Shown here piece after piece: positions 10,173 to 24,997 of a stretch of DNA of 31,725 nt. Below the pieces are notes generated by a model. That model saw nothing but the letters and a program-made list of their open reading frames with translations. It searched no databases and was not told the DNA's origin. Origin of the DNA: a virus; IMG/VR virus record IMGVR_UViG_3300034073_000856, positions 1 to 31,725 of that record; one strand, given 5' to 3'. Each line of letters starts with the position of its first letter. Positions within the stretch are counted from its first letter, which is position 1. The position numbers and the translations under genes are program-made.

Positions 10173-11179
10173 GCAACAAAAAAATCACCGAACTCACCGA
10201 ACTAACCACGCCAACCACAGACGATGTTCTGCCTTTGGTTGATATTGCTACCAACGCAACCAAGAAAGCGCAGTTGGGAAGTTTGCCTATTTCATCAGCC
10301 ACTCAAACGGCTCTTGACGCAAAACAAGCAACCCTTGTTTCAGGCACAAATATCAAGACCATCAACTCAACCTCTTTGTTAGGTTCTGGGGATATTGCCA
10401 TATCAGCCAACCCAGCAGGAAGCAACGGACAAATCCAGTTCAATTCCTCTTCGGCCTTTGGTGCTGATTCTAATCTTTATTGGGATAATACCAATAAAAG
10501 GTTGGGGGTTGGGACAAGTAGTCCGCAAAATACCTTATCAGTCGTAGGTGCAGATAACGCATATAATTTGGGCGTTTATGGTGCTTCGGGTAAATTAAGA
10601 ATTAAAGCATACTTAAATACTACTTACGGGACACTATTAGAAAGCAAAACAACAGCAGATGCTTTAATGCCTACAACGATTAGTGCATCAAAAATCCTAT
10701 TACTTGATGGGCAAGTAGGTGTAAACACAACAAGCCTAACTGCACAACTCCACATCAAAGGCTCTGGCTCAACATCAGCCACTACCTCATTGTTGGTGCA
10801 GAATAGTTCGGGGACGGCTGCGCTTACTGTAAAGGATGATTTGAGTACGACTTTTGGCAATACCAATTTAACCGTAGATGGAAGCAACGCAATACTTTTT
10901 AGAAACTCTTTAGGCACCGAATCTATTGCGTTCAATCTTTCAAGAATGGTATTTACAGACCTAAATGGATTTGTGTTCAATTCAGCAACCACGGCAGCAA
11001 CTTTAACACCTTCATCATTGGTGGATATCCAAAGCACCACCAAAGGCTTCCTCCCCCCCCGAATGACCACCACGCAAAAGAACGCCATCAGTTCCCCTGC
11101 TGAAGGATTGATGGTTATGGACATTACAACGCATAAATTGTGTGTATATGACGGAACTTCTTGGGTAGATTTGCACTAA
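10169..11179 (+). CDS. Tail fibre / receptor-binding protein
   Basis: A 336-residue Thr/Ser/Asn-rich protein. The N-terminus (KITELTELTTPTTDDVLPLVD) is typical of phage fibres. The middle holds repeated short beta motifs (RLGVGTSSPQNTLSV and QVGVNTTSLTAQLHIKG). The C-terminus (GFLPPRMTTTQKNAI, GLMVMDITTHKLCVYDGTSW) is a common fibre ending. It presumably contacts the host surface. A run of eight C at 11053-11060 encodes the Pro-Pro of GFLPPR; a slip there would remove about the last 45 residues. Confidence 0.8.
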   Translation: MSNKKITELTELTTPTTDDVLPLVDIATNATKKAQLGSLPISSATQTALDAKQATLVSGTNIKTINSTSLLGSGDIAISANPAGSNGQIQFNSSSAFGADSNLYWDNTNKRLGVGTSSPQNTLSVVGADNAYNLGVYGASGKLRIKAYLNTTYGTLLESKTTADALMPTTISASKILLLDGQVGVNTTSLTAQLHIKGSGSTSATTSLLVQNSSGTAALTVKDDLSTTFGNTNLTVDGSNAILFRNSLGTESIAFNLSRMVFTDLNGFVFNSATTAATLTPSSLVDIQSTTKGFLPPRMTTTQKNAISSPAEGLMVMDITTHKLCVYDGTSWVDLH

Positions 11180-11859
11180 TGCAGAAGGCTAGAATTTATA
11201 GAATTTATTGGGAAAACAATCCATATTTTTATTATGGACAAGCAGTCAATTTGAGTCGCAGAAAATCAACTCATTTGAATAGCATCAAAAATGGAATTCA
11301 CAAAAACGCCAAAATGCAATCTATCTACAACAAATATGGAGATTTTGTTTTTGAGCCTATTGTTTATTGTGATGTAAAACATTTGGATCTTATAGAGCAA
11401 AGATATTTAGATGAATTTTTTGGCAATCAAAATTGCTGCAATCTTTGCCCAAAAGCAGAAAGTTCAAAAGGAAGAAAATTAACAGAAAAAGGATTGGCCG
11501 CTATACGAGAAGCAGCAAAAAACAGAAAACCTACAACTGGCAGCAATAATCTTTTTTTCGGTAAAAGTCACACAGAGGAAACTAAAAAGAAAATATCTCA
11601 AAGTAGAATAGGCCGAAAATTTCCAAAAATATCAGAAGCAAAAAAAGGATTTAAGGCATCAGAAGAAACCAAGCAAAAATTGTCTAAAATGAGAAAATAT
11701 GGTGGCGCACCAAAAGCCAAACTCATTATTGATACTAACACTGGTGTTTTTTATTCGTGTGCCAAAGAAGTTTCTGATTTGTATGGTTTAGTCCATAGCA
11801 CATTTAGAGCAAAAATGAATGGACGAATGCTAAACAACACACAATTTGAACAAGCATAA
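11179..11859 (+). CDS. GIY-YIG homing endonuclease with NUMOD3 motifs
   Basis: A 226-residue basic protein. The GIY-YIG core is seen as RIYRIYW (5-11) and YFYYGQ (16-21), with R27/R28 next and the likely metal-binding Glu at E73 (LIEQRYL). NUMOD3-type DNA-binding repeats follow (NNLFFGKSHTEETKKKISQS, 123-142, and a second around 160-172). The C-terminus resembles a NUMOD1/HTH module. The gene is clearly more A/T- and Lys-rich than its neighbours, which indicates lateral entry. It is free-standing, starts inside the stop of the fibre gene, and probably promotes its own spread among related phages. Confidence 0.88.
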   Translation: MQKARIYRIYWENNPYFYYGQAVNLSRRKSTHLNSIKNGIHKNAKMQSIYNKYGDFVFEPIVYCDVKHLDLIEQRYLDEFFGNQNCCNLCPKAESSKGRKLTEKGLAAIREAAKNRKPTTGSNNLFFGKSHTEETKKKISQSRIGRKFPKISEAKKGFKASEETKQKLSKMRKYGGAPKAKLIIDTNTGVFYSCAKEVSDLYGLVHSTFRAKMNGRMLNNTQFEQA

Positions 11860-18853: not shown

Positions 18854-18882
18854 TTGTATATTGCAAAAGATTTTTATCTTTG
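18854..18882 (+). promoter_or_regulatory. Bacteroidota-type promoter, probably leaderless
   Basis: TTG at 18854-18856, an 18-base spacer, and TATCTTTG at 18875-18882 match the Bacteroidota consensus (TTG-N18-21-TAnnTTTG). The ATG of the next gene starts 6 bases after the box, about where transcription should begin, so the mRNA would have little or no leader. The box context (AAAAGATTTTTATCTTTG) closely resembles the second promoter at 21429. Confidence 0.85.
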
Positions 18883-20791: not shown

Positions 20792-20807
20792 CACCAAAGA
20801 GAAATGA
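20789..20807 (+). repeat. Gene-junction repeat, copy 3
   Basis: The same 19 bases as copies 1 and 2. Here the repeat starts with the TAA stop of the previous gene, so CACCAAAGAGAA is untranslated. This shows that sequence conservation is not due to the encoded peptide. Confidence 0.85.
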
Positions 20808-21421
20808 GTACACAAATAGAATGGGAAGCAAAGCGAATGGGAAAGTTCACGGCTTCCGAGATTTACAAACTAATGGGAACTCCTAAGAAGAAAGGAGAAC
20901 TTCTCACAGAGACCGCCAAATCGTTTGTGATTGAAAAGGCAGCCGAGATTCTAACTGGGCAAAAACGCCCGGCTTGGGGTGCTGCTCTTGATTGGGGATT
21001 GGAACACGAACAAGAAGCGTTCATTCACTTCAACAATCAATCCGAACAAATCTGGGAATACTACGGAGGGAACGAATACAAGTTCTATTCTTATGGGGTT
21101 TTCTCTGGGGCTTCTCCCGATGGGCTGTCAACATCTCACTTGTTGGAAATTAAATGCCCTTATGAGAGCCACAATCACATCAAGCATATGCTCATCAAGA
21201 ACAACGAGGATTTCAAGTCCTCACGGCCTGAGTATTATTGGCAGATGCAACTGGGAATGATTGCCACCGAGAAGTCAAAAGGAATATTCGTTTCCTACGA
21301 CCCACGAATGCCAGAGGACAAGCAGATATATCAAATAGAGATATACCAAGATGATGTCAAGGCTGAGATTGATGAGAAGATTGGAGTTGCCTCAGAGATG
21401 TTGGCTGAAATTATTTCTTAA
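20804..21421 (+). CDS. YqaJ/lambda-type exonuclease
   Basis: A 205-residue protein of the YqaJ recombinase/exonuclease family. Residues likely to bind metal are E69 or E71 (WGLEHEQEA), D106 (ASPDGL), and E115 with K117 (LEIKCP). It would resect double-stranded DNA ends to give the ERF protein single-stranded substrate. Its ATG is in the third junction repeat. Confidence 0.88.
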   Translation: MSTQIEWEAKRMGKFTASEIYKLMGTPKKKGELLTETAKSFVIEKAAEILTGQKRPAWGAALDWGLEHEQEAFIHFNNQSEQIWEYYGGNEYKFYSYGVFSGASPDGLSTSHLLEIKCPYESHNHIKHMLIKNNEDFKSSRPEYYWQMQLGMIATEKSKGIFVSYDPRMPEDKQIYQIEIYQDDVKAEIDEKIGVASEMLAEIIS

Positions 21422-21601: not shown

Positions 21602-21804
21602 TACCAGCAATTCTAATCATCCCCGTGACTTTTGTCATCTTGGCTTTGAGTTACCTCAAGTTCATCATCAAGAAGGGTATTGACTCTTATGATGTTCCTC
21701 ACCAACCAGTCCCTGAGCGTGACAAGTTCATTCCTCAATTCAACGAATGGCAGAAGCACCTCAAGACCGAACGCAAAAAATTGTACAAAGGAAAAGCACT
21801 ATGA
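21598..21804 (+). CDS. Small membrane protein
   Basis: A 68-residue protein with one N-terminal membrane segment (IPAILIIPVTFVILALSYLK, 2-21), and a basic cytoplasmic tail. No family recognised. It lies in the ATGA-linked early operon. Confidence 0.65.
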   Translation: MIPAILIIPVTFVILALSYLKFIIKKGIDSYDVPHQPVPERDKFIPQFNEWQKHLKTERKKLYKGKAL

Positions 21805-22082
21805 ACAAGCAGAAAATCGCCTCAATCCTTTTGAATCATCCCAAGGCTATGGATGATGACAACCTCCTACAATCACTCGTTTGGAAAGGTGAAATGAGTG
21901 GCAATCCAAATATCTCAGCGATGGACTTTCTACGCCTCTATGCTGCAGGTGCATTCACATCTCCCGAAACTATCCGCAGATGCAGACAGAAGCTCCAGGA
22001 AGAGTACCCACACCTTAGAGGACAGAAGTACAAGATCCGTCATGAGCATCAAGAGAAGTGGAAAGAGGATTTCAATATATGA
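21801..22082 (+). CDS. Hypothetical early protein, HTH-like
   Basis: A 93-residue protein. Residues about 40-75 (SAMDFLRLYAAGAFTSPETI, then RRCRQKLQEEYPHLRG) resemble a small winged-helix or HTH module seen in Bacteroidota phage proteins. I use ATG 21801, which overlaps the previous stop. A role in early regulation or replication is possible. Confidence 0.6.
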   Translation: MNKQKIASILLNHPKAMDDDNLLQSLVWKGEMSGNPNISAMDFLRLYAAGAFTSPETIRRCRQKLQEEYPHLRGQKYKIRHEHQEKWKEDFNI

Positions 22083-22456
22083 GAATATATCATCATTACA
22101 CTCTTTGGGAAGATTACCATAACGGGCTATACCGCACAACTTGGGACAATGAAGATTTGCTCATATCCAAAGCTATTGAATTATTATCTAACCCAGATTT
22201 GTTTTATTCTGTCGCATTAGAAATGATTGACCAGTGGCCAATAAGTGCCGAAGTTAATCTAACAAACAAAGAAAGCAATCGCAAATCGTGGATTGGACAA
22301 GCGTCTTGTTGCTATTATGCAAACACGCCAGAAATACTGACTTGTATGGCTTGGGGTAAATTGACGCAAAATCAGCGAGATATAGCGAACGCAGTTGCTA
22401 ATAAAATTATTAAACACTACGAAATAAAAGATGACCAAATTAAGATTGAATTTTAA
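22079..22456 (+). CDS. Conserved small phage protein, partner of the IbrA/IbrB pair
   Basis: A 125-residue protein. The N-terminus (YTLWEDYHNGLYRTTW) and the C-terminal block (WPISAEVNLTNKESNRKSWI, then GQASCCYY and LTQNQRDIANAVANKII) match a small phage family that I recall by its pattern WP-x(2-4)-E-x-NLTN-x(2)-NR-x-W-x-G-x-A. I associate it with phages that carry the IbrA-type gene. The gene overlaps the next by 26 bases. From here to about 24350 the DNA is distinctly AT-rich, which suggests a transferred cassette. No biochemical role is known to me. I use ATG 22079 over the upstream in-frame start. Confidence 0.65.
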   Translation: MRIYHHYTLWEDYHNGLYRTTWDNEDLLISKAIELLSNPDLFYSVALEMIDQWPISAEVNLTNKESNRKSWIGQASCCYYANTPEILTCMAWGKLTQNQRDIANAVANKIIKHYEIKDDQIKIEF

Positions 22457-23648
22457 TGTACTGGAAGCAGCACAAGATAGAATTTCAAAAACATTTGATG
22501 AGTTTGAAAAAATATATCTGTCATTTAGTGCTGGTAAAGACAGTACGGTGATGTTGCATCTTGTTATGCAAGAAGCCATTAAAAGAAAACGAAAGATAGG
22601 ATTGCTATTGATTGATTTAGAAGGACAATATAAGATGACTATTGAACACGCAATATCTTGCTATGATATGTATTCTGAATACATTGATCCATATTGGGTT
22701 TGTCTTCCAATACATTTACGAAATGCCGTATCCGTATTTGAAACACATTGGATGTGTTGGGACAAAGACAAGAAAGATTCATGGATAAGAGAACCATATC
22801 AAAACTCAATAACAGATTACAATTACTTCCCATTTTTTCACGAGGGAATGGAGTTTGAAGAGTTTGTCCCTGAGTTTGGCAAATGGTATTCACAAGGGAA
22901 ACCATGTGCTTGTTTTGTTGGAATTAGAACCGATGAATCATTGAACCGATATAGAACAATAGCCAGTCGGCACAAAACAAGATTTAACAATTATCAATGG
23001 ACAACACTAGTGTGCGATGATGTATACAACATTTACCCAATTTATGACTGGAAGACAGCAGACCTTTGGAAATGGCATTATGACAATAAGCAATACCCAC
23101 ATAACAAATTATATGACTTGATGCATCAAGCAGGATTAAAACCTTCTCAAATGAGAATCTGTCAACCATATGGAGATGACCAAAGAAGGGGATTGTGGTT
23201 GTTTCATTTAATTGAACCAGAAACTTGGGCAAAGGTTGTTGCTCGTGTAAATGGTGCAAATAGCGGTGCTTTATATGTCAATGAATCAGGAAACATAAAT
23301 GGATATAGAAAAATATCTAAACCAGAAGGCCACACTTGGGAATCATTTGCGAGGCTTCTAATTAATTCTATGCCACCTAAAACTAAAGAACATTACGAAG
23401 GTAAAGTCACGGTATTTGTAAAATGGTGGATGGAAAGAGGCTATCCGTCAGGAATACCAGATGAAGCCGATTATAAGTTGGAACAAGATAGAAAAGTTCC
23501 TTCGTGGAGAAGGGTTTGCAAATCACTATTGAGAAATGATTATTGGTGCAAAGGTTTGTCTTTCACACAACACAAAAGCGAAGCCTATCAAAAATATCTT
23601 GACTTACAGAAAAGAAGAAAAGAACAATGGAATCTAAAACTATTTTAA
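22431..23648 (+). CDS. ibrA: IbrA-like PP-loop protein (PAPS reductase family, DUF3440)
   Basis: A 405-residue protein. The PP-loop ATP pyrophosphatase motif is SFSAGKDS at 31-38. The C-terminal third has the DUF3440 pattern (YPSGIPDEADY; PSWRRVCKSLLRNDYWCKGL). The enzyme would activate a substrate by adenylation, as PP-loop proteins do. The active-site ECG-x-H tail of CysH-type PAPS reductases is absent, so sulfate assimilation is unlikely. IbrA of E. coli prophages acts with IbrB to raise expression of immunoglobulin-binding genes; the chemistry is not established. DndC of phosphorothioate DNA modification belongs to the same superfamily. The next gene encodes the IbrB-like partner two bases away. 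Confidence 0.82.
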   Translation: MTKLRLNFNVLEAAQDRISKTFDEFEKIYLSFSAGKDSTVMLHLVMQEAIKRKRKIGLLLIDLEGQYKMTIEHAISCYDMYSEYIDPYWVCLPIHLRNAVSVFETHWMCWDKDKKDSWIREPYQNSITDYNYFPFFHEGMEFEEFVPEFGKWYSQGKPCACFVGIRTDESLNRYRTIASRHKTRFNNYQWTTLVCDDVYNIYPIYDWKTADLWKWHYDNKQYPHNKLYDLMHQAGLKPSQMRICQPYGDDQRRGLWLFHLIEPETWAKVVARVNGANSGALYVNESGNINGYRKISKPEGHTWESFARLLINSMPPKTKEHYEGKVTVFVKWWMERGYPSGIPDEADYKLEQDRKVPSWRRVCKSLLRNDYWCKGLSFTQHKSEAYQKYLDLQKRRKEQWNLKLF

Positions 23649-23649
23649 T

Positions 23650-24321
23650 ATGAACATAAACATTGAAGCCAGAATGCTCGTAAATCAAATCGCAGCATTA
23701 CCAGAACCAGAAAGAATTGACATTATCAATCAAATAAGATTGATGATCCACGAAGTAAGTCCAATGAAAAACGAACCAGTTGATTGTGTTCTTTGGGTGA
23801 AAAATGACAGCGTTTACGCAAACGATTATAACCCAAACTCAGTTGCTCCACCTGAAATGAAGTTACTTGAACACTCAATACAAGAGGATGGTTACACTCA
23901 GCCAATCGTAACAATGAAACAAGAAATAGGTCGTGAAGTTATTGATGGCTTTCACAGACATCGTGTTGGAAAAGAAAGTGAATTAATACAAAGTAGAGTT
24001 CATGGATATTTGCCAGTTGTTACTATTAATGAACACAGAACAGATAGAAGCGATAGAATGGCTTCAACAATACGCCACAATCGTGCAAGAGGTAAACATA
24101 AAGTTGAATCTATGTCTGAGATTGTTCTTGAATTAAAACGCAGAAATTGGTCTGATCAGAAAATATCTAAGGAACTCGGTATGGACGCTGATGAGGTTTT
24201 AAGATTATATCAAATTACTGGATTAGCAGATATGTTCAAAGATCATGAATTCACTCAAGCGTGGGAGGTTGATTTGATAGATGAATCAGATTCTATTGAA
24301 ACATACGAAGAAAATGTATAG
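23650..24321 (+). CDS. ibrB: IbrB-like ParB-domain protein
   Basis: A 223-residue protein. The ParB/sulfiredoxin-fold motifs are visible as YANDYNPN (56-63), a helix with SIQEDGYTQPIV (76-87), and VIDGFHRHRVGKE (97-109), where classical ParB has GERRxxA. Residues about 155-198 form an HTH (SMSEIVLELKRRNWSDQKIS, then KELGMDADEVLRLY). It begins two bases after the IbrA-like gene, so the pair is translationally linked. The fold can bind nucleotides, and members include nucleases and kinases. The function here is unknown. Confidence 0.82.
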   Translation: MNINIEARMLVNQIAALPEPERIDIINQIRLMIHEVSPMKNEPVDCVLWVKNDSVYANDYNPNSVAPPEMKLLEHSIQEDGYTQPIVTMKQEIGREVIDGFHRHRVGKESELIQSRVHGYLPVVTINEHRTDRSDRMASTIRHNRARGKHKVESMSEIVLELKRRNWSDQKISKELGMDADEVLRLYQITGLADMFKDHEFTQAWEVDLIDESDSIETYEENV

Positions 24322-24330
24322 CCAATTTGT

Positions 24331-24338
24331 TATCTTTG
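24331..24338 (+). promoter_or_regulatory. Promoter-like TATCTTTG box before the structured RNA
   Basis: TATCTTTG, identical to the -7 boxes at 18875 and 21450, lies 9 bases after the stop of the IbrB-like gene. No TTG is found 18 bases upstream, so the promoter is less certain. Transcription from it would start near 24345. Confidence 0.5.
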
Positions 24339-24344
24339 CTATAT

Positions 24345-24451
24345 AAAAATACAGATAGTTCACTACCGAGAGAGAGTCGGTTTAGAACAGAATACTTTTG
24401 CCCGTTGTGGTCAGGTGTCTCTCTCACGCCTGACTGCTTCGGGCTTTTTTT
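24345..24451 (+). ncRNA. Candidate structured RNA or attenuator with kissing loops
   Basis: Between the box at 24331 and the next gene are two hairpins. Hairpin 1 has stem CCGA (24366-24369)/TCGG (24377-24380) with loop GAGAGAG. Hairpin 2 has an outer stem GCCCG (24400-24404)/CGGGC (24440-24444), an internal loop, an inner stem GTCAGGTG (24410-24417)/CGCCTGAC (24427-24434), and loop TCTCTCTCA (24418-24426). Seven T follow (24445-24451). The loops are complementary over 7 bases. The same terminator loop is also complementary to the start-codon region of the next gene. It could be a small RNA of about 105 nt, or a leader that controls the replication operon. Confidence 0.6.
24400..24451 (+). 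terminator. Intrinsic terminator with long two-part stem
   Basis: The outer 5-bp and inner 8-bp stems (one G-U pair) are separated by a 5x5 internal loop and followed directly by seven T. The T-run touches the ATG of the next gene (24452), so transcripts entering from the IbrB side would end one base before that coding region unless read-through occurs. Confidence 0.8.
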
Positions 24452-24997
24452 ATGAGAGAATCAATGATCATCTATCGGTCTTTTTATGAGGCCATCAAAG
24501 ACCTACCAGCAGAAGATGCTGCAAAGGTTTACAACGCTATTTTTGACTATGGTTTAAATGGCAATGCACAACAGTTGTCAGGTATAGCCTTGACAATCTT
24601 CACCTTAATCAAGCCACAACTTGATGCAAACATTCGGAAGTTTGAGAATGGAACAAAGGGAGGAAGACCTAAAAAAGAAACCAAACCAAAACCTAAACCA
24701 AAGCAAGACGAAAGCAAACCAGAAGGCAATGTAAATGATAATGTAGAATTAGAATGTAAATCAGAATATAAAGAGTGGTTTGATTTATGGTTTGCATATA
24801 AGTCAGAAAAGCGACAGACATACAAACCGATTGCGAAGAAGCAGTTGATTCGTTCAATGGAATCCAAGTACACACCAGCACAATTCAAGGCAGCAGTTGA
24901 GTATTCTATTTCTAACAATTACCAAGGTATCTTTGAACCCAAACAAGAAGCCAAACCAGAGGCTCGTTCTCCTCAATACAAAAAAGCCACACTATGA
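24452..24997 (+). CDS. DUF6291-like replication-region protein
   Basis: A 181-residue protein. The N-terminal 70 residues (SFYEAIKDLPAEDAAKVYNA; YGLNGNAQQLSGIALTIFTL) follow the pattern of the DUF6291 family common in phages and prophages near replication genes. The centre is a Lys/Pro-rich linker (PKKETKPKPKPKQDES), and the C-terminal part is a helical domain with EWFDLWFAYKSEKRQ. It precedes and overlaps dnaB, so it may be the helicase loader or origin-binding partner. ATG 24464 is an alternative start, since 24452 abuts the T-run of the terminator. Confidence 0.7.
   Translation: MRESMIIYRSFYEAIKDLPAEDAAKVYNAIFDYGLNGNAQQLSGIALTIFTLIKPQLDANIRKFENGTKGGRPKKETKPKPKPKQDESKPEGNVNDNVELECKSEYKEWFDLWFAYKSEKRQTYKPIAKKQLIRSMESKYTPAQFKAAVEYSISNNYQGIFEPKQEAKPEARSPQYKKATL

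Follow-up and report, generated by a model that had tools for sequence, protein, structure and literature searches.

A Discrete Phage Cassette Joins a Small Helical Protein to the IbrA/IbrB Pair and May Act on DNA

IbrA and IbrB are annotated as regulators and occur in about a third of complete Escherichia coli genomes. What such a pair does in a phage, and with which partners, is the question raised by record IMGVR_UViG_3300034073_000856 of IMG/VR, a complete virus of 31,725 bases (hereafter the window). PHROG matches of its main proteins (portal protein, TerL, Erf, exonuclease, O-like initiator and DnaB) identify it as a tailed phage. Its early region contains three genes, coding for a small protein that we call S, an IbrA-like enzyme and an IbrB-like protein, with the exonuclease gene (20804-21421) before them and the O-like/DnaB replication genes (24452 onward) behind. 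An earlier reading made from the DNA alone (the sequence-only reading) had described these as three tightly coupled genes, and both the open reading frames and their spacing are as described: S and IbrA share 26 bases, and a gap of 1 base separates IbrA from IbrB. The parts of the cassette are as follows.

22079..22456, + strand: gene S, 125 residues, all-helical in the structure model, no matched fold.
22431..23648, + strand: IbrA-like PP-loop enzyme of the PAPS-reductase superfamily, DUF3440, 405 residues.
22521..22544, + strand: PP-loop SFSAGKDS, IbrA residues 31-38, an ATP pyrophosphatase signature.
23382..23624, + strand: C-terminal domain of IbrA, about residues 318-398, containing the near-invariant Cys373; counterpart of gene c in class II loci (see below).
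23650..24321, + strand: IbrB-like protein, 223 residues, with a ParB/sulfiredoxin N-terminal domain and then a helix-turn-helix (HTH)-like segment.
22073..24319, + strand: accessory block that sister phages lack as a whole, by empty-site alignment and blastp synteny.

First, is this cassette a unit of its own? The sequence-only reading had taken it for a transferred unit because its genes are tightly coupled and differ from the flanks in base composition. The difference is real (35.8% versus 42.6% guanine plus cytosine, GC). Since the GC content of the cassette follows that of the flanks across 195 related cassettes (r = 0.93), with an equally large deficit in 15% of them, composition alone is weak evidence for transfer. 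We therefore dropped AT-richness as proof and used an empty-site test instead. Sister phages were located through their DnaB, and synteny was compared by blastp over 24 sister contigs. One of these, L256, lacks the cassette although its DnaB is 98% identical and its neighboring genes are mostly 82-99% identical to those of the window. At base level, five contigs (L256, L257, L258, L265 and L272) align up to positions 22069-22072 and resume at 24320-24355. Because all five break and resume at the edges of the cassette, the missing block consists of the three genes and nothing else. The block is present in sister contigs L002 and L003, and no transposase or integrase was found within it. S-IbrA-IbrB is a discrete accessory cassette that is gained or lost as a unit, and the idea of a transferred unit finds its support chiefly in this exact empty site. 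Presence and absence among near-identical phages is compatible with a defense-related or host-specific benefit.

The second question is whether S is a genuine partner of IbrA and IbrB. Scanning with IbrA, we found 80 loci, 74 of which contain S; one of the six S-less loci (L061) ends at the contig edge. A scan with S kept 66 new loci, and 65 of these have IbrA and IbrB in the fetched stretch, the exception being cut at the contig end. Co-occurrence, which the sequence-only reading had offered as a check on its idea, is therefore strong. The same loci that were counted supplied the profiles for S and for the other genes counted below (c, helicase and cupin). S is followed directly by IbrA, or by a separate gene for its C-terminal domain (c), in 171 of 174 distinct S loci, usually with overlap. 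We refer to loci of the window type as class I and to those with c after S as class II. The order of the genes varies (SAB as in the window, BSA, ABSc, ScAB, BScA and AScB), and since the adjacency of S to IbrA or c is kept through these rearrangements, the arrangement is as expected of a functional complex. S is genetically locked to IbrA or to its C-terminal domain, and the suggestion that the small upstream protein may be a third component proved sound. No fourth conserved gene was found beside S loci except phage replication and recombination genes. Apparent SAA orders were considered as split IbrA genes and rejected; the extra match is the separate C-terminal-domain gene. The SABA loci L058 and L134 represent one phage, and their second PP-loop reading frame is unrelated. 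Class I-type IbrA loci with neither S nor the helicase described below also occur (L035, L043, L045, L046 and L103); L043 ends in IbrA at the contig edge.

Gene c, which directly follows S in 71 loci (about 70 distinct ones, the class II loci), has about 80-90 codons and is homologous to IbrA positions 317-397. Class II IbrA remains full-length, with a C-terminal domain of its own that is more divergent than c. In a tree of 259 C-terminal domains, the c sequences form one clade, and class I domains together with c separate from the domains of class II and helicase-type IbrA (support 0.97; 163/165). The near-invariant cysteine of the IbrA domain is absent from c, so that a docking role of c is more probable than a catalytic role. 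From these genetic data we infer that S binds the C-terminal domain of IbrA, which is part of IbrA in the window and a separate chain in class II; our structure models are of single chains. The C-terminal domains of S-less IbrA proteins, such as those of E. coli, group with class I. Since class I-like domains occur without S, S is not obligatory for such a domain.

S itself has a well-defined conserved core, E..W..S.E.NLTN...NR.AW.GQAACC...PE..TR.AW..L......AN..A, so that the NLTN-NR-W motif pointed out in the sequence-only reading is real and shared among S relatives. AlphaFold2 predicts a compact, all-helical protein (predicted local distance difference test, pLDDT, 97.2; predicted template modeling score, pTM, 0.90). 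A fold search of the PDB with this model gave no match (best E 1.6), and the search of BFVD gave a single viral match, A0A649V0K8 (E 3.5e-6), which carries no name, is uninformative and is probably an S homologue. Pfam, NCBIfam and PADLOC contain no family that matches S at E ≤ 1; 24 members of the S family found nothing among the PHROGs at E ≤ 0.01, and the window S alone gave a marginal match to phrog_7239 (E 0.016). At least 596 relatives were found in viral contigs by the scan with S. Among cultured phages, tblastn found only six records, all of which carry IbrA and IbrB in differing gene orders; at least one locus was found in bacterial genomes, a lower bound set by a restrictive degenerate pattern. 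In the IbrAB literature, which we covered in part so that novelty is unproven, we found no description of S, of c or of the association with the helicase. S appears to be an undescribed component of the known IbrAB pair.

Loci without S usually contain a different partner. A scan with the divergent IbrA group returned 80 loci, of which 55 have S, 24 have a SNF2-like helicase and one has neither. Across 207 distinct IbrA loci the counts are 170 with S, 28 with the helicase, nine with neither and none with both; this pool includes loci found via S, which inflates the share of S and leaves the exclusivity unaffected. The helicase, a SNF2-like protein of helicase superfamily 2 (PF00176) with about 390-450 residues, adjoins IbrA/IbrB. 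On the IbrA tree, which comes from a single FastTree run, at least five changes between S and helicase are needed, versus at least 24 with shuffled labels. S and the SNF2-like helicase exclude each other and act as alternatives. Examples of helicase genes are found at L105:2824-3990, L106:6171-7364, L107:2824-4032, L175:2836-4002 and L176:2220-3416. Phages of Streptococcus, Fusobacterium, Flavobacterium and Lactobacillus have the helicase beside IbrAB, often with a small upstream protein and never with S.

Class II loci have a further element. Of 68 class II loci, 42 encode a cupin of the ectoine synthase family (PF06339, 1.7e-35), and in 20 the cupin is joined to the N-terminal end of IbrB (for example, L101:4736-5632 and L099:5069-5458, in which it is fused to or lies beside IbrB). 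One of 102 class I loci has this cupin, and none of the 28 helicase loci does. The three types (class I, class II and helicase) thus appear to be variants of a single module in which one part can be exchanged. In Chlorobiaceae phage CV-1-33, IbrA is preceded by two other small genes, which may represent additional partner types. More distant IbrA relatives (L282:3269-5636, L283:3325-6137 and L281:73-2717) are flanked by ParB-like genes. Those of Bacillus and Arthrobacter phages have ParB and methyltransferase genes around them, those of mycobacteriophages lie between ParB genes beside TerL, and the Arthrobacter ones are also close to TerL. Profiles detected neither S nor helicase at these distant loci of Bacillus, Arthrobacter and Mycobacterium phages.

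What chemistry may such a module perform? The enzyme of the window was correctly recognized as an IbrA-like PP-loop protein. It matches Pfam DUF3440 (5.8e-36; 124 bits, cut-off 25) and PAPS_reduct (3.8e-12; 47 bits, cut-off 22.5), and it is 45.5% identical, at 99% coverage, to IbrA of Escherichia phage PhiR5_2. This full-length DUF3440 plus PAPS_reduct architecture, together with an SxGKDS PP-loop, places it in the IbrA/YbdN family. Nearly all of 209 IbrA proteins have the PP-loop and the GIRxxES motif, and conservation of residues S33, G35, K36, D37 and S38 reaches 90% or more in each of the three partner groups. IbrA carries the GIRxxES/PIYDW phosphate-handling motifs of the CysH/CysD/FAD-synthase group, and its ATP-site residues are intact. 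The nearest folds that Foldseek found for the IbrA model (pLDDT 83.7) are human FAD synthase, FMN adenylyltransferase, CysH, APS reductase and CysD; the thiolases NcsA and LarE match less well. CysD and CysH are also the nearest sequences. As far as the model can tell, these fold neighbors favor adenylyl chemistry over sulfur transfer. Of the two example chemistries offered by the sequence-only reading, the fold neighbors thus favor adenylation, and Dnd-type sulfur transfer is unsupported.

Sulfur chemistry deserves a closer look, since IbrA belongs to the same superfamily as DndC and CysH. As in the Dnd system, in which DndB is ParB-like, the window pairs a ParB-superfamily protein with one of the PAPS-reductase superfamily, and IbrA has a single conserved cysteine near its C-terminus (Cys373) in addition to Cys91. 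The likeness ends there. DndC models cover only about 60 residues of IbrA, with 25 bits for PADLOC and 20 bits against a cut-off of 290 for NCBIfam, and no DndB match was found for IbrB; the specific relationship to DndC suggested earlier is not supported. DndC requires C280 for its [4Fe-4S] cluster (PMC11662687). Among the 209 IbrA proteins, Cys91 and Cys373 are the only widely conserved cysteines and each is absent from roughly 10-20%; with no equivalent of C280, a [4Fe-4S] site is unsupported. PHROG scans of the main window proteins recognized no cysteine desulfurase (DndA/IscS), DndD or DndE near the cassette, and no additional conserved neighbor cluster was found in related loci. Sulfate assimilation fares no better: IbrA scores 24 bits against the CysH equivalog cut-off of 154, and its sequence lacks the ECGxH tail, an absence that the sequence-only reading had already held against this function. 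Dnd-like phosphorothioation of the DNA backbone, or a CysH-type role, is therefore highly improbable.

The wider list of IbrA folds also includes TilS, TtuA and NcsA. These matches raise the prospect of a TilS-like adenylation of transfer RNA or another RNA, altering translation during infection. They rank below FAD synthase, CysH and CysD, however, and we found no RNA-binding domain in the module; IbrB is ParB-like with an HTH segment, and the alternative partner is of the SNF2 type, a translocase on double-stranded DNA. An RNA substrate is very unlikely.

IbrB provides the second half of the argument. It matches PHROG 2159 (7.5e-70), is 51.9% identical to IbrB of PhiR5_2 and contains the motifs DGYTQPIV, DGFHR and TIRHNRARGKH in its ParB/sulfiredoxin N-terminal domain, with the HTH-like segment behind. 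DGFHR and RHNRARG are invariant in an alignment of 11 sequences, as befits a member of the IbrB/YbdM family. The protein was thus rightly called IbrB-like and ParB-fold, and these family assignments support the proposed combination of a PP-loop enzyme with a ParB/sulfiredoxin-fold partner. The IbrB profile matches ParB (9.7e-6), Noc (2.7e-5) and the serine kinase SbnI (0.0027), which is consistent with a ParB fold that binds nucleoside triphosphates (NTPs). IbrB does not belong to the partition proteins with cytidine triphosphatase activity: it scores 22.0 against a cut-off of 26.3 for Pfam ParB_N, the cytidine triphosphate motifs GERR and ENxxR of ParB are replaced by DGFHR and RHNRARG, and no ParA was found by PHROG scans among the window proteins scanned.

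The match to SbnI, together with the best fold match of IbrA to FAD synthase/FMN adenylyltransferase (enzymes that act on a free nucleotide) and with the ectoine-synthase-type cupin of class II, would also fit an enzyme for free nucleotides or small molecules, such as a defense signal or an NAD-like cofactor, with IbrB as a kinase or NTPase. We regard this as unlikely, as the HTH segment of IbrB and the helicase that replaces S both point to DNA.

The module itself is well supported; its chemistry we infer. We tentatively propose, at a little short of an even chance, that S-IbrA-IbrB is an accessory module of the early region that acts as one complex on DNA. By analogy with its relatives, IbrA may form an adenylylated intermediate, activating a group with conversion of ATP to AMP and pyrophosphate, and IbrB, which may bind both NTP and DNA, would direct the reaction to DNA through its ParB-like domain and HTH segment. 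S would dock on the C-terminal domain of IbrA and supply a targeting, loading or regulatory function, a part that the SNF2-like helicase would play in other IbrAB modules. The reaction would leave DNA with a modified base or nucleotide, which would shield the phage or alter promoter activity. We take DNA as the most likely substrate because IbrB combines a ParB-like domain with an HTH segment, a helicase is the alternative to S, the cassette sits in the early region, class II loci have the cupin, distant IbrA relatives lie among ParB and methyltransferase genes, and phage hypermodification offers a precedent (PMC12783734). The helicase in place of S, the HTH segment and this precedent likewise lend support to the sequence-only reading, which had named nucleic acid as a plausible target. 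The ectoine-synthase-type cupin would point to condensation chemistry. A bolder version, in which IbrAB, with its PP-loop enzyme adding a group to DNA, is the catalytic core of an undescribed and widespread family of phage DNA hypermodification systems with S and a translocase as interchangeable parts and a cupin that sometimes cyclizes the product, is possible and at present doubtful.

Transcription is the other function to be weighed. In E. coli, IbrAB is reported to switch on prophage eib genes (Sandt 2002, as cited in PMC8065619 and PMC7649339), and the ybdNM operon of K-12 is linked to a regulator (PMC9068703). IbrA and IbrB may accordingly be co-activators of phage or host promoters, with S as an extra regulator and nucleotide chemistry serving for sensing; the HTH segment and ParB fold of IbrB would suit this role. 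A pure regulator would have no need of the full active-site set that all IbrA groups retain, a cupin fused to IbrB suggests catalysis, and a SNF2-like helicase is an unusual partner for an activator. We consider this explanation unlikely. A DNA modification that alters promoters would also fit the activation of eib.

Several observations weigh against a DNA-modifying complex that includes S. The only experimental phenotype of IbrAB is transcriptional, and since E. coli IbrAB works without S, S must be dispensable for some IbrAB function. We detected no DNA-binding features in S, whose mean net charge is about -1.6, and found no relative of its fold among solved structures. Loci of the window type (class I) carry no helicase and almost never a cupin. 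No conserved methyltransferase or hydroxymethylation gene was found beside S loci, and hence there is no obvious base handle. Finally, the counts overstate independence, because the loci are phylogenetically related and some contigs overlap.

How do known systems compare? IbrA/IbrB pairs are present in 1,918 of 5,426 complete E. coli genomes, K-12 having ybdN-ybdM, and related pairs in more than 200 phage records. Like the window, E. coli IbrA/IbrB and K-12 YbdN/YbdM form a two-gene pair with overlapping genes; unlike the window, the E. coli pairs examined have no S, c or helicase adjoining. In Flavobacterium phage FCL-2 and prophage 6H, an IbrAB pair and extra upstream genes were noted by the authors (PMC4541368). 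Both are phages of Bacteroidota. FCL-2 shares IbrAB with the window, and upstream of its pair lie a small protein and a SNF2-like helicase instead of S. The mycobacteriophages Gaia and Nebkiss and Pseudoalteromonas phage XCL1123 have S, IbrA and IbrB like the window, but they are class II, with c after S and the cupin fused to or beside IbrB. The cultured Pseudomonas phage Amjad_SA also carries the cassette. The CmoX/CmoY hypermodification clusters of phages contain an AMP-forming AsnB-type ligase, often with a ParBc protein (PMC12783734), and so resemble IbrAB in the combination of an AMP-forming enzyme with a ParB-type partner. Their ligase is asparagine-synthetase-like, not IbrA, and they require CmoA/CmoX, which we did not see next to S loci.

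Two mutually exclusive partner types, and an S protein tied to one domain of IbrA, provide specific handles on the chemistry of IbrAB. If the module does modify DNA, it would represent a new and widely distributed counter-defense chemistry of phages, and in many viral genomes the gene would be mislabeled as "PAPS reductase, auxiliary metabolic gene for sulfur metabolism".

Two features adjoin the cassette.

21747..22082, + strand: upstream neighbor, overlaps S by 4 bases, kept in phages without the cassette.
24330..24452, + strand: structured leader outside the cassette with a Bacteroidota-like -7 box and a terminator hairpin, kept where the cassette is absent.

In the leader, a TATCTTTG box is accompanied by two hairpins. 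The first is CCGA-GAGAGAG-TCGG; the other is a strong terminator, the CUCUCUC loop of which is complementary to the loop of the first, with a T-run that abuts the start codon of the O-like gene. The predicted minimum free energy is -41.1 (z -4.6). Nine sequences show no variation in the GAGAGAG stretch or in the CUCUCUC loop, and one compensatory pair change was seen (GTCAGG/CCTGAC to GTTAGG/CCTAAC). Rfam gave no match to 24300-24480 and zero matches in a scan of the whole window. The leader resembles an attenuator of the kissing-loop type acting on the replication genes.

TAnnTTTG boxes are a promoter type known from Bacteroidota. The window has three in AT-rich intergenic DNA, at 18875, 21450 and 24331, which by this analogy suggests a Bacteroidota host for the phage. 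The segment 21419-21457, 39 bases long, AT-rich and promoter-like, ends in a TATCTTTG box, and a copy with 97% identity is found elsewhere in sister phages (L256:6812-6850). The segment with the lowest GC content of the window (32%) is a homing-endonuclease-like gene at 11161-11859 (PHROG 314, 1.9e-30).

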